64,000 nt of DNA from Negativicoccus massiliensis (GTDB lineage Bacteria; Bacillota; Negativicutes; Veillonellales; Negativicoccaceae): contig LT700188.1 of NCBI GenBank assembly GCA_900155405.1, forward strand, positions 868,001 through 932,000, in the 5' to 3' direction. Under the pieces are notes generated by a model, which made no database searches, was not told the DNA's origin, and saw nothing but the letters and a program-made list of their open reading frames with translations. A program made the translations under genes and the position numbers. This document shows positions 21,033 to 58,542 of this stretch, in pieces (the stretch's first letter is position 1; each line of letters starts with the position of its first letter).

Positions 21033-22562
21033 TTATTTGCCGTAATTTTTATCGGCTTTGACTTCGATGCGGAATGCGTTTTCACCCAACGATACGCGGT
21101 CGACATCATATACGTCTTTGCCGTATTTCTGATCGAGGTAGTATTCCACCGCGTTTTCCGCCTGATCGGAAAGCGAATCGGGGGTCGCGCCATACGTGTA
21201 TTTACCGAGGATTTCCGTGATCGCCGCACGGTCTTCCGCCGGCAACGCTTTCGTGTAATCCATCAGTTCCAGAACCGTATGATCTTTAACAGCGGCCGGT
21301 TGTTCCGCCGCTACCTGCCGTTCGATAAAGCTCGAACCCATACGAATCTCCATCCGATACGCGTTCGTTTCCAAACGATTAACGGCGGCTTTGTAAGTTT
21401 CTTCACCGTACGTTTGGTTCAAATAGTGTTGCACTTCATTGCGAGCGCGTTCCACAAGGTTGGCCGTCGTATCGCCGGCGACATACTGATTCAGGATATG
21501 CGTAATGTTGTTGCGGTCAGTGTCGGTCATTTGGCTCGTGAAGTCCGTCAATTCATATACGAATGCGGCTTCCTGCGCGGTCGGTTGCTCCGGAGCGACT
21601 GCCGCGCCCGGTGCTTTGTAGTTGTCGTCGCCTTTGATTTGAACGTCGTAAGCGCCGTTTTCCAATTTTTTCAAGTCGACATCATAGAAGTCGTCGCCGT
21701 ATTTCTGATCCATGTATTGTTGAACGGCGTCTTCCGCGCGGTCCGCCAAGTTCGCCGCGCTGTCGCCATGCGTATATTGTCCGAGAATCGCCGTGATCTG
21801 TTCACGATCGGCCGCGGCCATTTCGTGCGTGAAGTCCGTCAACTGCAAGACAATGCTCGCCGCGGCCGGTGCTACGGTCGGTTGCTCCGGAGCGACTGCC
21901 GCGCCCGGCGTTTTGTAATTGTCGTCGCCTTTGATCTGCACATCATAAGCGCCATCTGCCACTTTTTTCACATCGACATCATAGAAGTCGTCGCCGTATT
22001 TCTGATCCATGTATTTTTGAACGGCGTCTTCCGCGCGTTCCGCCAAGTTAGCGGCGCTGTCGCCGTACGTATATTGACCGAGAATCGCCGTGATCTGTTC
22101 ACGATCGGCCGCGGCCATTTCGTGCGTGAAGTCCGTCAACTGTAAAACGATACCGCCGTCAGCCAATACGGTCGACGCAGGCACTGCAGCCGGTTCCGTC
22201 GGAGCTGTAGCTACGGTCGGTTCCGCCGGCGCGGGCGCAGGAACTTGGTTGGCATCGTTGGTAACGTAAATGTTCATGTGGTAGTCACTGACATCTTTGT
22301 CCGTATAAACAAAGTATTGACCTTCCCCATATTTTTGGTTCAAGAAATTCTGAATATCAGCTACCGCCTGATCCACCGCGCCTTCACTGACGCCGCGTCC
22401 CAAGTAGGGTACCGCAATATCACCGGTGTGCTGTTTATCTTCGACGGTCAGCGTCTTGCTCTGGTCACGGAGATAATACATGTCAACATCGTAATAGTTC
22501 ATCGCCATGGCGCTTGTGCCGATGGCCGCCAATACGGTTAATGCTAACGCTGTCTTTCTCAT
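21033..22562 (-). CDS. secreted protein with five ~80-residue modules, unknown family
   Basis: A 509-residue exported protein. The signal peptide ends near AMA (residue 20). The mature protein begins NYYDVDMYYL and contains five related modules at about 22-105, 138-217, 237-316, 335-412 and 429-508, joined by Ala/Pro/Glu-rich linkers. Consensus of one module: hydrophobic-x-L-x-D-[FY]-T, then DR-x-x-I-x-x-IL-x-x-Y, an amphipathic helix AV-x-x-Y[ML]DQKYG, YDVD and a closing strand AY-x-[VI]-x-I-K-x-D-x-NY. Modules 2 and 3 differ at only a few positions. I do not recognise the family. Acidic and tyrosine-rich; no anchor, so periplasmic or released. It is monocistronic with its own promoter and terminator, and two paralogues follow upstream on the same strand. 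Confidence 0.85.
   Translation of the reverse strand: MRKTALALTVLAAIGTSAMAMNYYDVDMYYLRDQSKTLTVEDKQHTGDIAVPYLGRGVSEGAVDQAVADIQNFLNQKYGEGQYFVYTDKDVSDYHMNIYVTNDANQVPAPAPAEPTVATAPTEPAAVPASTVLADGGIVLQLTDFTHEMAAADREQITAILGQYTYGDSAANLAERAEDAVQKYMDQKYGDDFYDVDVKKVADGAYDVQIKGDDNYKTPGAAVAPEQPTVAPAAASIVLQLTDFTHEMAAADREQITAILGQYTHGDSAANLADRAEDAVQQYMDQKYGDDFYDVDLKKLENGAYDVQIKGDDNYKAPGAAVAPEQPTAQEAAFVYELTDFTSQMTDTDRNNITHILNQYVAGDTTANLVERARNEVQHYLNQTYGEETYKAAVNRLETNAYRMEIRMGSSFIERQVAAEQPAAVKDHTVLELMDYTKALPAEDRAAITEILGKYTYGATPDSLSDQAENAVEYYLDQKYGKDVYDVDRVSLGENAFRIEVKADKNYGK
21579..22151 (-). repeat. near-identical 297-bp direct repeat (modules 2 and 3)
   Basis: 22151-21876 and 21854-21579 encode modules 2 and 3 with the start of the linker APEQPT. 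Period is 297 bp, 99 codons. The high DNA identity suggests recent duplication or gene conversion. Confidence 0.85.
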
Positions 22563-22583
22563 CTTTCAGCCTCCTTTGGCAAT

Positions 22584-22694
22584 GTCTGTCACTGTAATAT
22601 AAAATTTTTCAGCTGATCGCAGGAACGATCAATGGCAAACAACGGACAGACCTGCTGCTACTTTTATTATACGTTTCGTACCGAAAAGCGTCAA
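22584..22694 (-). promoter_or_regulatory. promoter and leader shared with the 23950 paralogue
   Basis: TTGACG (22694-22689), 17 bases, TATAAT (22671-22666). About eight bases after the start site comes GGTCTGTCCG, whose GTCTGTC (22651-22645) is complementary to GACAGAC (22590-22584) just before the ribosome-binding site; a hairpin TGATCG/CGATCA lies between. The promoter, the leader start and the leader end recur almost unchanged upstream of 23950. Confidence 0.65.
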
Positions 22695-22891: not shown

Positions 22892-22921
22892 AAAAAACAG
22901 CTCCTTGCGGAGCCGTTTTTA
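22892..22921 (-). terminator. terminator of split repeat gene
   Basis: AACGGCTCC-GCAA-GGAGCTGTT with flanking A and T runs, directly after the stop codon at 22926. Confidence 0.85.
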
Positions 22922-22925
22922 TTTG

Positions 22926-23363
22926 TCATTGCTGTTCTTTCGCAGCCTTTGTATTCAGACGATGCTTCAAGTAGTTACGCCCGACCATAACCCGATACTG
23001 AACCTTACCGTTATCCGACGTGACGAATACGACTTCAAATACATGATCGCCGTATTTTCGAGCCAAATATTTCGCCGCCGCTTCGCGAGCCTCTTTCGGC
23101 TGATAGCCTTCAAAATAGCCGCGCAACTCTTGCTGATCCTGCGCGCTCAGACGTTTCGTGCAGTCCACGAGCATGCCGCGCGAATCGGGTTGCGGCAGTA
23201 CAATTTCCGCGTCGTAAGCGCCGTTAAAATAGTTGGCATCGGCTTGCATGTACTGGCCCATGCGCACGCCGTACTCATTGTAGTAGGCGCGACCGTCGGT
23301 GTAACCGTTCGGCGTTTCACCGGCTTGGCGCGGCTGTACGCCTTTCGCCGCCGGAATTACTTG
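22926..23363 (-). CDS. -1 frame continuation of secreted repeat protein
   Basis: Open frame entered from the 23950 gene by one step back at the A7 tract (first codon CAA at 23363). It continues the parent repeat exactly (AAKGVQP, then NGYTDGRAYYNEYGVRMGQYM) and then carries one copy of the ~80-residue module found in the flanking genes (CTKRLSAQDQQELRGYF, AAKYLARKYGDHVFEV). It has no signal peptide and no ribosome-binding site at its first internal ATG (23267), so independent expression is unlikely. The fused product would be 341 residues: signal peptide, three YTDG repeats and one module. Alternatives are a true frameshift mutation, length variation of the A tract, or a sequencing error. Confidence 0.7.
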   Translation of the reverse strand, partial: QVIPAAKGVQPRQAGETPNGYTDGRAYYNEYGVRMGQYMQADANYFNGAYDAEIVLPQPDSRGMLVDCTKRLSAQDQQELRGYFEGYQPKEAREAAAKYLARKYGDHVFEVVFVTSDNGKVQYRVMVGRNYLKHRLNTKAAKEQQ

Positions 23364-23383
23364 TTTTTTTCGGAATTCTCCTG
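23320..23383 (-). promoter_or_regulatory. putative programmed -1 ribosomal frameshift signal
   Basis: In the zero frame of the 23950 gene the codons GAA AAA AAC form the slippery heptamer A_AAA_AAC (23369-23363). Upstream AGGAG ends seven bases before it. After an eight-base spacer containing the zero-frame stop TAA (23359-23357) comes a hairpin: CCGGC-GGCG pairing with CGCC-AA-GCCGG (23354-23320), with an inner GGC/GCC stem. A second run, A8 at 23391-23384, could also slip into the same frame. The layout mirrors the E. coli dnaX signal. Confidence 0.6.
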
Positions 23384-23950
23384 TTTTTTTTCCGGTGCTA
23401 CCTGCGGCGGCACGTTCGGATAAAGATCTTTATTTTCCGCCATCTTGTCCGTCATCGGTCTTGCATCCGGATCAAAGTAACGAGCGTCCGCCTGCATGTA
23501 TTGTCCCATGCGTACGCCGTATTCGTTGTAATACGCCTGACCGTCGGTATAACCGTTGATGGTTTGACCCGGAGCATACGGTTGTACGCCTTTTGCCATC
23601 GGTTTTACTTCCGGTTTTACTTCCTCTTTAGCTGTTCCGTCTTGTTTTTCTTGCGGCGCTACCTGCGGCGGTACGTTCGGATAAAGATACTCGTTTTCCG
23701 CCATCTTGTCCGTCATCGGTCGTGCGTCCGGATCAAAGTAACGAGCGTCCGCCTGCATGTATTGTCCCATGCGTACGCCGTATTCATTGTAATACGCCTG
23801 ACCGTCGGTATAACCGTTGACGGTTTGACCCGCGGCATACGGTTGTACACCTTGCGCCGCCGGCGTAGCCGGTACCTGAGCGTTGTCCGCGGCCAATACG
23901 CTGCCGCTGATTGCTGCCAATGCAGCCATTGCGAGTAATGTCTTTTTCAT
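23357..23950 (-). CDS. secreted repeat protein, zero-frame product
   Basis: A 197-residue exported protein. The signal peptide ends at about SVLA-A (residues 20-21). Two repeats of 66 residues follow (34-99 and 121-186, period 87): GVQPYA-x-GQT-x-NGYTDGQAYYNEYGVRMG and QYMQADARYFDPDARPMTDK, ending YPNVPPQVAP. A lysine/glutamate linker separates them. It stops at TAA 23359, 14 codons after an A8 run, in the middle of a third repeat that continues in the -1 frame. AAAGGAGG precedes ATG 23950. The repeat unit is unknown to me; the tyrosines and YTDGQAYYNEYG core suggest a surface or envelope role, but that is guesswork. Confidence 0.8.
   Translation of the reverse strand: MKKTLLAMAALAAISGSVLAADNAQVPATPAAQGVQPYAAGQTVNGYTDGQAYYNEYGVRMGQYMQADARYFDPDARPMTDKMAENEYLYPNVPPQVAPQEKQDGTAKEEVKPEVKPMAKGVQPYAPGQTINGYTDGQAYYNEYGVRMGQYMQADARYFDPDARPMTDKMAENKDLYPNVPPQVAPEKKQENSEKNK
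23393..23851 (-). repeat. 261-bp direct repeat in split gene
   Basis: Two highly similar copies (23851-23654 and 23590-23393) encode the 66-residue YTDG repeats; a third, partial and diverged copy starts near 23345 in the -1 frame. Confidence 0.8.
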
Positions 23951-23969
23951 CTTGCTTCCTCCTTTGTAC

Positions 23970-24083
23970 GTCTGTCACAGGAATAAAGATTCCTTTCGGT
24001 TGACCGCCAATGCAGTCTATTTTTTTAGAACCGGACAGACCTTCTACTCTCTTCATTATACGTTTCGCGTCAAAAAGCGTCAA
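23970..24083 (-). promoter_or_regulatory. promoter and leader of split repeat gene
   Basis: TTGACG (24083-24078), 17 bases, TATAAT (24060-24055). ATATTTGACGCTTTT and CGAAACGTATAAT are the same as in the 22562 promoter. GTCTGTC (24040-24034) can pair with GACAGAC (23976-23970); inside are hairpins GACTG/CGGTC and AGGAAT/ATTCCT. Confidence 0.65.
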
Positions 24084-24148: not shown

Positions 24149-25417
24149 TCAGTCGTCACCACGATCGCGTCCCGGCCAGCCGTTAACGCCTTCCAGGATA
24201 TCCCAAATGATTCGGCCGACACCGTCGTCCAGCCATTCCGGGCGGCGGTCGTCCGCACGATCACTTTCGATTTCGATACGATAGACATGCGCATTCACGC
24301 GTTCGTAACTGACATCGTAGTCCCGATAGCGGTACGCGCGTTCCAAGTAGCGCTCCACATCCGCCGCCGCATGTTGCGCCAGCCGCTCCGCATCCCGACC
24401 TGTCGCGTAGCTGTCCAAGATGCGACGAATCTCACTGCGATCGCGATTTGTCAGATCCGACGTGCGATCGCGCAATTCAAAGATGACATCGACTTTCTGC
24501 CGATCGCCTTGTTTGGCTTTCACATCAATTCGAAATTCGAAGCGATTTTTATGCCCGGTCTGTACGCGCACCACATCGACATCGAAATGATCGCTACCGT
24601 ACGTTTGGTCCAGGTATTCTGCGACGGCCTGTTTAGCCGCTGCGGCATAACGGCGCGCGAAGCGTTCTTCATGGGCGCCCGTCCTCAGACCGTCGGTCGC
24701 GTCCTGAATACGTTCCGCGATGAGCCATTGATCGCGATGCGTCAATTGGCCGGAGAAATCACGCAAATCATAGTTGGCAGAGAAGTAATATTCCCGCTGC
24801 GTGTCTTGGTAGTTTTTGTCGCCCCGCACGATGACCCGATACGCATTGCTTGCGAGCCACTTCGTTTCCACGCGGTAGTGGCGGCTGCCATAAGCGCGAT
24901 CCAAATAATGCTGGACGGATTGACGCGCCTGTTCCGCAAGTTTCGCGGTCGTGTCGCCGGCCGTGTAGCGGCCGAGCAAACCGCGAATGTCGGAACGCTG
25001 CGTTTCCGTCAGCGAATTCGTTTCATCTTCAAATTCAAGAATCATGTACGCGGGCGCGTTCTGATCTTTCGCATCTTTCGCATGCGCGCGCCGGTTATCA
25101 TCGTAACGTACATACAGATCCAACCGCCCCGAACGCGTCCGATCCGCCGCAGCGACGTCATACACGTCACGACCGTAAGCGGAATCCAGATACCTTTCGA
25201 GTTCGTCTTCCAAACGATTCATATCGCTTTCGGACATACGGCCGCCCGCATACGGACGCGCCGCGCGGTTCAAATGCACGCGATCACGGACCGACAGGCT
25301 GCCCGTCTGATCGACTACGGAAAACGCACGAACATCATAGTAATCCGCGGCAAACGCGCTGCCCGTGACGCAAAGAAGAGTCAACATCGATACTAACGTT
25401 TTTTTCGTTCGTTTCAT
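24149..25417 (-). CDS. secreted protein with four ~80-residue modules, unknown family
   Basis: A 422-residue exported protein of the same family as the 509-residue neighbour. Signal peptide to about SAFA-A; the mature start ADYYDVRAF mirrors NYYDVDMYY of the paralogue. Four modules (about residues 25-105, 120-198, 210-300, 306-385) keep DR-x-x-I, the helix with YLD-x-[AT]YG and YDV/FDV. They are more diverged than in the 509-residue protein, with many Arg residues instead of Ala/Glu. A tail WLDDGVGRIIWDILEGVNGW is unique to this gene. GAGGAGG precedes ATG 25417; the TTG just before is not needed. No clear promoter or terminator was found. Confidence 0.82.
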   Translation of the reverse strand: MKRTKKTLVSMLTLLCVTGSAFAADYYDVRAFSVVDQTGSLSVRDRVHLNRAARPYAGGRMSESDMNRLEDELERYLDSAYGRDVYDVAAADRTRSGRLDLYVRYDDNRRAHAKDAKDQNAPAYMILEFEDETNSLTETQRSDIRGLLGRYTAGDTTAKLAEQARQSVQHYLDRAYGSRHYRVETKWLASNAYRVIVRGDKNYQDTQREYYFSANYDLRDFSGQLTHRDQWLIAERIQDATDGLRTGAHEERFARRYAAAAKQAVAEYLDQTYGSDHFDVDVVRVQTGHKNRFEFRIDVKAKQGDRQKVDVIFELRDRTSDLTNRDRSEIRRILDSYATGRDAERLAQHAAADVERYLERAYRYRDYDVSYERVNAHVYRIEIESDRADDRRPEWLDDGVGRIIWDILEGVNGWPGRDRGDD

Positions 25418-25611
25418 CAAAATCCCTCCTCACCGAGAATACGGTCTCACAGGATCGTCACCATTAGGAAATGTCCTTGTCTTTGTCTATATTTTAGCAC
25501 TCTTCGGTAAAAAGCTCACAAAAACGCGCCATTTTTGAGCCTTTTCTAATGTTTAAAGCGCACTCCATCCTTTTACTTCCAGACTTCTTTGCCATGTCAG
25601 ACGCCGACAAC

Positions 25612-56029: not shown

Positions 56030-56061
56030 AATAAAAAATAAAAGATGCGTATTCACGCATC
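56030..56061 (-). terminator. terminator of addB-YezG operon
   Basis: GATGCGT-GAAT-ACGCATC followed by TTTTATTTTTTATT; the stop codon of the 56053 gene lies in the loop. Confidence 0.8.
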
Positions 56062-56700
56062 TTCTATCGTCTCGTTTGCTTTCGCTGTTTCGACCGCTTT
56101 TTTCTCTCTCGGAAGCGCGTGCACGCGGACGCGACGAGTGCCGCGATACGCGGGCGTTTCTCCGGGCAGCCGTTCCCAATAGCCGCGCGGACGTCGACGC
56201 CACAAGCGATGCCGCTGCTTGCGCAAGGGCCGATGCCATGCGCTGTACGCCGCCGCAAGCAGTCGACGCAAACGCAACGGCAAATAAACGGCGCCGAAAC
56301 GTTCGTATTCCCACGCAAATTGCTCTTCAATCGGATCGACCTGGTAATGATGCCGATGACCGTAAATCGCGCTCTCCAAACCGCGCGGCGAAAATTCCAG
56401 CGTCGCGCTTGTCCAAGGGGAACGTCCCGGGTTCTCCGCGATCCACGCTTTCCAAAGTTCGCGCACCGCCGTGTCGGCCGCCGCCATTTGCAACCACAGG
56501 TCTTCTTCCGAACCGCCCGTCCGCCAAACAGAATCCGTCCAGTAGACATACTCCGCGCGCGTTTTCGGGCGGTAATAAAAATAATGAAGCGGCTCGGTCG
56601 CCATGAGCGTTCGCCAAACGACGCGTCCCCACGGCTCTTTAATCAGCGCCGCAATCGTCTGCATTACGTCGGCGTACGCCGCCTGCATTTGTTCGTTCAC
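56053..56700 (-). CDS. YezG/DUF600-like protein with basic C-terminal tail
   Basis: A 215-residue protein. Residues about 1-135 fit the YezG (DUF600) immunity/antitoxin pattern: a leading helix, KEPWGRVVWRTLM, LHYFYYRP, SPWTSATLEFSPRGL, and the closing DPIEEQFAWEYERFG. The last 75 residues are Arg-rich and unrelated. YezG-like proteins protect against YeeF-type toxins, but no toxin gene is here. GTG 56700 with GGAAG upstream. Last gene of the operon. Confidence 0.55.
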   Translation of the reverse strand: MNEQMQAAYADVMQTIAALIKEPWGRVVWRTLMATEPLHYFYYRPKTRAEYVYWTDSVWRTGGSEEDLWLQMAAADTAVRELWKAWIAENPGRSPWTSATLEFSPRGLESAIYGHRHHYQVDPIEEQFAWEYERFGAVYLPLRLRRLLAAAYSAWHRPLRKQRHRLWRRRPRGYWERLPGETPAYRGTRRVRVHALPREKKAVETAKANETIEDA

Positions 56701-56713
56701 GCTGCTTCCTTTC

Positions 56714-57511
56714 TCAGCGGTGCTCCCGCCATGGTGTCATATATCGTTGCCACTGCGCCAACAGCGCCTGGACCATTAATCCCGCTACACACAACACAAA
56801 GATGCACGCCAACATCGGCGCGGTCAACATCAGGTCCCCGAAATGCAAAATCAGCGCGCCGATGCCCGTCTGCGCCGCGATCATTTCCGCCGCGACGACG
56901 AGCACGAGCGCCGTGCCGCAACCGAGTTGCAAGCCCGCGAACAATTCCGGCAGCACCGCCGGCAGCGCGACGGTACGTAAATACCGCCCGCGACTCACGG
57001 GATACATCGCGGCGACCTCACGGTAAAGGCGCGGCAAACGCACCAGTCCCGCCATCGTGTTAATAAAAACCGGGAAAAAGACACCGAGCGCAATCAATAC
57101 GTATTTCGGCAATTCACCGATGCCGAGCCAGAGCACGAAAAGCGGCAAAATGGCAATTTTCGGCAAGGGATAAAAGAAATAAATATACGGTTCGATCAAG
57201 CGTCGAAACGTCGGCGAAAGTTCTCCCGCGAGCGCCAACAACAACGCCGCAAGACCGCCCGCGATCACGCCGACCAGCCAACGTAACGCGCTCGCCGCCA
57301 GCGCCGGTCCTAACGTGCCGTTTTGCACCAACGCCGCCAACGCGCTCGCGATTTGCGACGGCGCGGGGAGATATACCGGTGAAATCCACCCCTGACGCAC
57401 GCTCCACTCCCACAGACCGAGCAGCAGCAACACGCCCGCCAGCGCCCACCAGCGCGCGAGACCGCTGTCTTTTGGCGCCAAACGGTACCGTACTTCGCGT
57501 TCAGTCGTCAT
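56714..57511 (-). CDS. ABC transporter permease, SsuC/TauC family
   Basis: A 265-residue permease with six membrane segments. EPYIYFFYPLPKIAILPLFVLW and the EAA region MYPVSRGRYLRTVALPAVLPELFAGL match the nitrate/sulfonate/taurine family. Overlaps the ATPase gene by 11 bases. Substrate could be a sulfonate, pyrimidine precursor or thiamine precursor. Confidence 0.9.
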   Translation of the reverse strand: MTTEREVRYRLAPKDSGLARWWALAGVLLLLGLWEWSVRQGWISPVYLPAPSQIASALAALVQNGTLGPALAASALRWLVGVIAGGLAALLLALAGELSPTFRRLIEPYIYFFYPLPKIAILPLFVLWLGIGELPKYVLIALGVFFPVFINTMAGLVRLPRLYREVAAMYPVSRGRYLRTVALPAVLPELFAGLQLGCGTALVLVVAAEMIAAQTGIGALILHFGDLMLTAPMLACIFVLCVAGLMVQALLAQWQRYMTPWREHR

Positions 57512-58286
57512 GGCGACCTCCCTGCGTCAACGCCGCCGTCGCGCCCGCTTTAATTTCCTGCCAAATGGTTTCTTCCAACGCCGCCAACTGCGTCCGCGCG
57601 CTGAGCTGATGCCGTTCCTTGCGCGGTATATCCACCGTCAAACATTCCACAATGCGGCCGGGGCGCGGCGAAAACACCCAAATCACATCGGCGAGCCGCA
57701 CCGCCTCGGCGATGTTGTGCGTGACATACAAGGTCGCCGGACGCAATTCTTCCCAATATTGCACCAAATCATCTTCCAACAGCCGACGCGTCTGCGCGTC
57801 GAGCGCGGAAAAGGGTTCATCCATTAATAATAAATCCGGCTCGGTCACCAGGGCGCGCGCGATCCCGACGCGTTGCCGCATGCCGCCCGAAAGCGAACCC
57901 GGATACGCATCCGCGAATTCGCTCAACTGCATGCGCGCCAATTTTTGCGCTACCCGTTCGGCAATTTCCTGCTGAGAAAACTCGCGATCCTGCAAACTGA
58001 ACGCCACATTGTCCGCGACGGTCAGCCAGGGAAATAAACCGCCCTGCTGAAACACCATCGCCGTCTGCGGTTGCTTTTCCGCGCCGCGCCAGTACAAACG
58101 TCCCGATGTCGGCAACAACAATCCCGCCGCCAAGTATAAAAGCGTCGATTTGCCGCAACCGGAAGGACCGATCAGCGCCACGAATTCTCCCGGCGCGACC
58201 GTTTTGGTAAGCGGCGCCAGCGCTTGGATCTGCACGCCGTTTTTCTCCGTATAGGTCTTCGTGACCGCGTCCAAACAAAATTCCAT
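57501..58286 (-). CDS. ABC transporter ATP-binding protein, SsuB/TauB family
   Basis: A 261-residue ATPase. Walker A GPSGCGKST (40-48), Q-loop MVFQQGGLFPWLTV, signature LSGGMRQR, Walker B LLLMDEPFSALD and the His in VTHNIAEA. ATG 58286 is one base after the upstream stop, with no strong site, so translation is probably coupled. No substrate-binding protein gene is next to it. Confidence 0.92.
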   Translation of the reverse strand: MEFCLDAVTKTYTEKNGVQIQALAPLTKTVAPGEFVALIGPSGCGKSTLLYLAAGLLLPTSGRLYWRGAEKQPQTAMVFQQGGLFPWLTVADNVAFSLQDREFSQQEIAERVAQKLARMQLSEFADAYPGSLSGGMRQRVGIARALVTEPDLLLMDEPFSALDAQTRRLLEDDLVQYWEELRPATLYVTHNIAEAVRLADVIWVFSPRPGRIVECLTVDIPRKERHQLSARTQLAALEETIWQEIKAGATAALTQGGRHDD

Positions 58287-58287
58287 A

Positions 58288-58542
58288 TTATTCAAACAGG
58301 GCGGTCTGCTCGTAGTGCTGCTGTGCGTTTTTCTCCGCGCCGAACACCCGCTCCATGGCACTTTGCGTAATGAGTACCGTGCCTTCCGATTTACGGGTTT
58401 CCGTCGCCGTGAAAATCGGCTCCACCAACGTTCCGTCCGGTCTGCGATAGCCGCCCGCGTAGTGGCGCAATGTGGATGCGGGCACTTCCCAACGCACCGC
58501 CGCCTCCATCAAAGTCATGACTTCCGTTAACGCATCCTGCAT
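58288..58542 (-). CDS. small helix-turn-helix protein
   Basis: An 84-residue protein. TLMEAAVRWEVPASTLRHYAGG is a plausible MerR/excisionase-like helix-turn-helix, followed by a wing with FTATETRKSEGTVLIT and SAMERVFG. Similar short proteins occur in Negativicutes and are likely DNA-binding; here it may regulate or accompany the ABC genes. AAAGGAGG precedes ATG 58542. Confidence 0.65.
   Translation of the reverse strand: MQDALTEVMTLMEAAVRWEVPASTLRHYAGGYRRPDGTLVEPIFTATETRKSEGTVLITQSAMERVFGAEKNAQQHYEQTALFE

Follow-up and report, generated by a model that had tools for sequence, protein, structure and literature searches.

Our analysis of a 64,000-nucleotide stretch of DNA (the window) revealed a minus-strand gene at 23950-22926 that is divided over two reading frames and encodes 341 residues in total when a 197-aa ORF is joined to its continuation in the -1 frame. 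The comparison was made between two genomes, namely the source genome and one other genome of the genus (the sister species, G001). The zero-frame ORF (23357..23950, minus strand) encodes a signal peptide (MKKTLLAMAALAAISGSVLAA) and two YTDG repeats that are almost identical, has a Lys-rich end and closes with a TAA at 23359-23357. Its 3′ end reads ...AGGAG AATTCCG AAAAAAAC AAG TAA, the last codons being GAA AAA AAC AAG TAA. The continuation in the -1 frame (22926..23363, minus strand) comprises 145 codons and a stop, which is TGA here and TAA in the sister species; the end of the ORF and the terminator behind it are conserved. Reading in the -1 frame past the slip site gives QVIPAAKGVQPRQAGETPNGYTDG..., followed by a third YTDG repeat (23226..23309, minus strand) and by one module with a POTRA-like predicted fold (22929..23183, minus strand; a weak match). 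Translation thereby bore out the initial annotation, which had described an intact third repeat and a module of the neighbouring family in this frame and a total of 341 residues.

A sigma-70-like promoter, TTGACG-N17-TATAAT, was identified at 24055..24083 on the minus strand (11 of 12 positions match), and a terminator-like hairpin with a T run lies directly 3′ of the stop of the -1 ORF (22892..22919, minus strand; -17.2 kcal/mol, z -5.7) and is kept in the sister species. These are the single promoter 5′ of the gene and the single terminator 3′ of the -1 stop. A start-codon scan of the continuation detected no ATG, GTG, TTG or CTG ahead of the middle of the repeat, and none with a Shine-Dalgarno (SD) sequence. 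Reinitiation or a separate second gene was considered for the -1 ORF and was rejected on the grounds that it has no usable SD-preceded start and no signal peptide; a free-standing second gene is unlikely because no independent start serves this ORF. Two exported-protein genes in the window carry an almost identical promoter TTGACG-N17-TATAAT in their upstream regions (22563-22694 and 23951-24083, minus strand), and in both regions there is a structured leader that is closed by GGTCTGTC...GACAGAC and followed by a ribosome binding site. These leaders did not match any Rfam family and are possibly a shared regulatory element. In the sister species, a further copy of the promoter, the leader and the first YTDG repeats is located just upstream of the gene (L007 4597-4322); it is truncated, its reading frame being stopped after roughly 91 codons.

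The C-terminal module is homologous to modules encoded at 21033-22562 and 24149-25420, which are genes for exported proteins without known family that contain four to five tandem POTRA-like modules each. A structure model of the -1 segment was confident for the module only (residues 61-145, block pLDDT 72-92), for which it predicts a beta-alpha-alpha-beta-beta fold with an additional helix. Among solved structures this came closest to BamA POTRA domains, with Z up to 6.9 over 72 residues, which is below the decisive level, and a Foldseek comparison with the PDB returned no match at E below 0.001. Pfam, NCBIfam and PHROGs offered no convincing family for these proteins. The resemblance to POTRA domains is suggestive. 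Relatives of these genes with two or three modules were found at the same chromosomal place, beside the same neighbour genes, in two sister genera, where no YTDG gene accompanies them. Scans of genomes and viral contigs did not detect a YTDG gene in any further genus sampled from the family and order.

At the junction of the two frames lies the slippery heptamer A_AAA_AAC (23363..23369, minus strand), which is identical in the sister species. The initial annotation had placed it at 23369-23363 within the zero-frame codons GAA AAA AAC, and both position and letters proved correct. The heptamer belongs to an A7 run (23370-23364, minus strand), has the form X_XXY_YYZ in the zero-frame register and is followed by AAG and the zero-frame stop TAA. 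A second A tract, of eight residues, is located upstream (A8, 23384..23391, minus strand) and contains the zero-frame heptamer A_AAA_AAA at 23390-23384, which the initial annotation had not considered as a slippery site. The -1 frame is open from there. A slip at this candidate second site would lead into the same frame, and the product would be equally long but have another short junction. A single substitution turns the heptamer into A_AAA_AAG in the sister species, where the run is only an A7. The upstream A_AAA_AAA is at best an auxiliary slip site, because no SD is listed for it and 29 nt separate it from the hairpin. In E. coli, A_AAA_AAG is the shiftiest of these A heptamers and A_AAA_AAC is far less shifty than the A_AAA_AAG of dnaX (PMC5009743), AAC in the A site being poor for bacterial slippage (PMC4066793, PMC5009743). 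Even without stimulators, frameshifting above 0.1% has been described for A_AAA_AAC, and stimulators considerably raise frameshifting at most motifs (PMC4066793). Both genomes encode the queuosine enzyme Tgt, and tRNA-Asn is therefore probably Q-modified, which does not settle the question of frameshifting.

The heptamer is flanked by two candidate stimulators. A Shine-Dalgarno-like AGGAG (23378..23382, minus strand), identical in the sister species, ends 8 nt before A_AAA_AAC and 7 nt before the A7 run, the latter being the distance of seven bases that had been noted earlier. Downstream, a hairpin of 35 nt with the stem CCGGCGGCG...CGCC-AA-GCCGG (23320..23354, minus strand; -19.7 kcal/mol, z -3.2) begins 8 nt past the heptamer and leaves the zero-frame TAA in the spacer, again in agreement with the earlier description. 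According to Sharma et al., bacterial -1 sites have an SD-like element at a distance of 6-17 nt ahead of the motif and a hairpin 4-10 nt downstream that starts with G-C pairs, has a stability of at least 7.6 kcal/mol and is more stable than its surroundings (PMC4066793). The AGGAG at 23382-23378 lies within this range, and the hairpin agrees as well, with its G-C start, its spacing of 8 nt and its 19.7 kcal/mol; its energy excess over the 197-nt surroundings amounts to 0.32 kcal/mol per nt, compared with a floor of 0.09 for the known IS3-family cases (PMC4066793).

Several comparisons show that this arrangement is more than chance. Equally good folding was found for about 0.07% of 35-nt coding windows (3000 random windows), and only the present one among the 68 in-register X_XXY_YYZ heptamers in the genes of the window is conserved and has both an SD and a hairpin below -16 kcal/mol. 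Genome-wide statistics were derived from pattern searches together with a subset of sampled loci. An equally strong and correctly placed hairpin was absent from all 49 further SD+A6 sites that were inspected, and SD+A6 pairs as such were not enriched (63 versus 68 in a reversed control). The hairpin is in part a by-product of coding for PAA-GVQP. An equally stable hairpin was obtained in 3% of synonymous recodings of the same peptide, and a folding energy of -18.2 kcal/mol was obtained for repeat 1, which is without a slip site.

Synteny with the sister species extends over the whole window, at about 94% identity. One region, 56053-58361, has a silent divergence of only 0.02-0.04 compared with about 0.16 elsewhere, which suggests recent exchange or strong constraint in this patch. 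The sister species shows the same frame break, A7C, TAA, SD and hairpin, with no indels across the 1025-nt gene. A comparison of A-tract length and hairpin in relatives had been proposed with the initial annotation, and in this one sister species the A7 has the same length and the hairpin structure is kept: the only difference is an A to C change at the apical loop that extends the 3-bp apical stem to 4 bp. The cassette is thus identical in the single available homologue in terms of slip site, SD and hairpin structure, where the GeneTack scheme seeks five or more members for a conserved frameshift family (PMC3711429). The cassette together with the third repeat block differs at one position in 163 nt. 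In a sliding-window comparison 2.3% of windows matched or beat this value, and we dropped low divergence around the cassette as a sign of strong RNA-level constraint since about 2% of windows are equal; the near-identical block is for the same reason only suggestive.

The -1 segment looks coding-like by sequence. Its codon usage scores 0.31 per codon for the -1 frame versus -0.22 and -0.65 for the other frames, a bias as strong as that toward the zero frame in the first part of the gene. Repeat 3 differs from repeat 2 by an excess of silent changes (13 silent to 5 replacement, P about 0.001). Between the species, the zero-frame ORF has a dN/dS of 0.19, and replacements in the -1 segment amount to 0.035 per site, where the local synonymous rate is 0.19; 12 replacements were observed versus 66 expected if neutral. 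The C module diverges by 6.7% and is free of indels, compared with 16-18% and indels in the flanking intergenic DNA. Within the -1 segment itself, the synonymous rate is low and the changes between the species (14 replacement to 5 silent) are at the neutral expectation.

Programmed -1 ribosomal frameshifting is, in our judgement and with moderate confidence, the best explanation of these observations. One mRNA from 23950-22926 would give two exported proteins. The majority of ribosomes would terminate at the TAA at 23359 and release the 197-aa protein with two YTDG repeats, and a minority would shift back by one base. The site of this slip would be A_AAA_AAC and perhaps also the upstream A tract, with the preceding AGGAG and the following GC hairpin as stimulators. 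The slipped ribosomes would complete the 341-aa protein, which gains the third repeat and the POTRA-like module. We infer from the sequence that the slippage takes place on the ribosome, how efficient it might be and that both products are useful; the long form is perhaps a low-yield product of around 1%, and the ratio of 197- to 341-residue protein, as the initial annotation had proposed, would be set by frameshifting. The dnaX-like cassette of that annotation stands with respect to the shared break, the SD and hairpin criteria (PMC4066793) and the coding-like tail, and is weakened by the poor A_AAA_AAC heptamer, the neutral replacement to silent ratio and a comparison of two genomes only. 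A more elaborate version, which we put forward tentatively, involves two slippery tracts in tandem, A_AAA_AAA or A_AAA_AAG and, 21 nt later, A_AAA_AAC, the latter equipped with an SD and a hairpin. Both would lead into the same -1 frame and fix the ratio of a short and a long exported protein, only the long one having the POTRA-like domain; the frameshift would then be a regulatory one in an envelope gene of the host, as opposed to dnaX or a mobile element.

Among the other explanations, a frameshift mutation fixed in the common ancestor of both species comes closest, as a lesser but serious possibility. The 197-aa protein would then be functional, and the -1 tail would be an untranslated or little-used relic that preserves past codon usage and the past repeat. 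This explanation keeps its standing because the replacement to silent ratio in the -1 part is neutral-like and shows no selection. Moreover, the low synonymous rate within the -1 segment, together with low-divergence patches elsewhere (56-58 kb), hints that recombination could have reset divergence, with relaxed evolution thereafter. The chance that any stop would have arisen from 19 neutral changes is only about 0.5, and the gene family is confined to one genus, a situation in which the GeneTack scheme favours the pseudogene classes (PMC3711429). However, the -1 segment has diverged much less than the local neutral rate predicts, the tail has acquired neither a stop nor an indel, its end codon and terminator are conserved, and a good cassette sits exactly at the break.

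Slippage of RNA polymerase, adding one A to the A7 or A8 tract in some transcripts and thereby fusing the frames, appears unlikely. Two tracts lie within 30 nt, and one added A in either would join the frames, but efficient bacterial cases have been described for runs of about 9 (PMC5009743), the A8 is only an A7 in the sister species, and the SD and hairpin would be left without purpose. Phase variation, in which the tract length in the DNA switches between the 197-aa and 341-aa forms, had been raised as an alternative in the initial annotation and is now very improbable: a homopolymer in an exported-protein gene is a common setting for it (PMC3711429), but an A7 is short for a phase-variable tract, its length and frame are the same in both species, and the A8 tract differs between them by a substitution and not by an indel. 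Homopolymers are also error-prone in sequencing, yet a true second tract of A8 and a plain 341-aa ORF is a highly improbable reading, because the sister species has the identical break; two separate assemblies, one single-contig and one in ten contigs, agree on A7, and in neither genome is any other gene of the window disrupted.

Programmed frameshifting at this gene would have its closest parallel in E. coli dnaX (tau/gamma), which has the same three-part layout of SD-like element, slippery A tract and hairpin a few bases downstream. The heptamer of dnaX is A_AAA_AAG, and its product becomes shorter through the shift, whereas here the heptamer is A_AAA_AAC and the product would become longer; furthermore, the proteins are unrelated and the present case is a prediction from sequence. 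The IS1 and IS3-family cassettes likewise produce a longer fusion of two ORFs by a shift, and the hairpin strength and spacing observed here fall in the range of the IS3 family, but those cassettes belong to mobile elements, whereas the exported protein described here is one of the host and is encoded between genes for homologous exported proteins. A_AAA_AAC is itself the site of a proven frameshifting IS cluster (PMC4066793). That cluster has no established stimulator, unlike the SD and hairpin at the present site. We take it to be IS1. Pilus genes of Bifidobacterium breve are also surface or exported genes that need one frameshift for the full product, but they encode other proteins in another organism, and frameshifting is discussed there as a possibility and not as proof (PMC5009743).

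The mechanism is thus already known, and the gene, as a candidate recognised by its sequence, is new for such frameshifting. To our knowledge, few well-supported programmed -1 frameshifts have been described from bacterial chromosomal genes beyond dnaX and insertion sequences. If true, this would be a host gene whose exported product has its domain composition determined by frameshifting, and the weak A_AAA_AAC site would be in use in a Veillonellales-like lineage.
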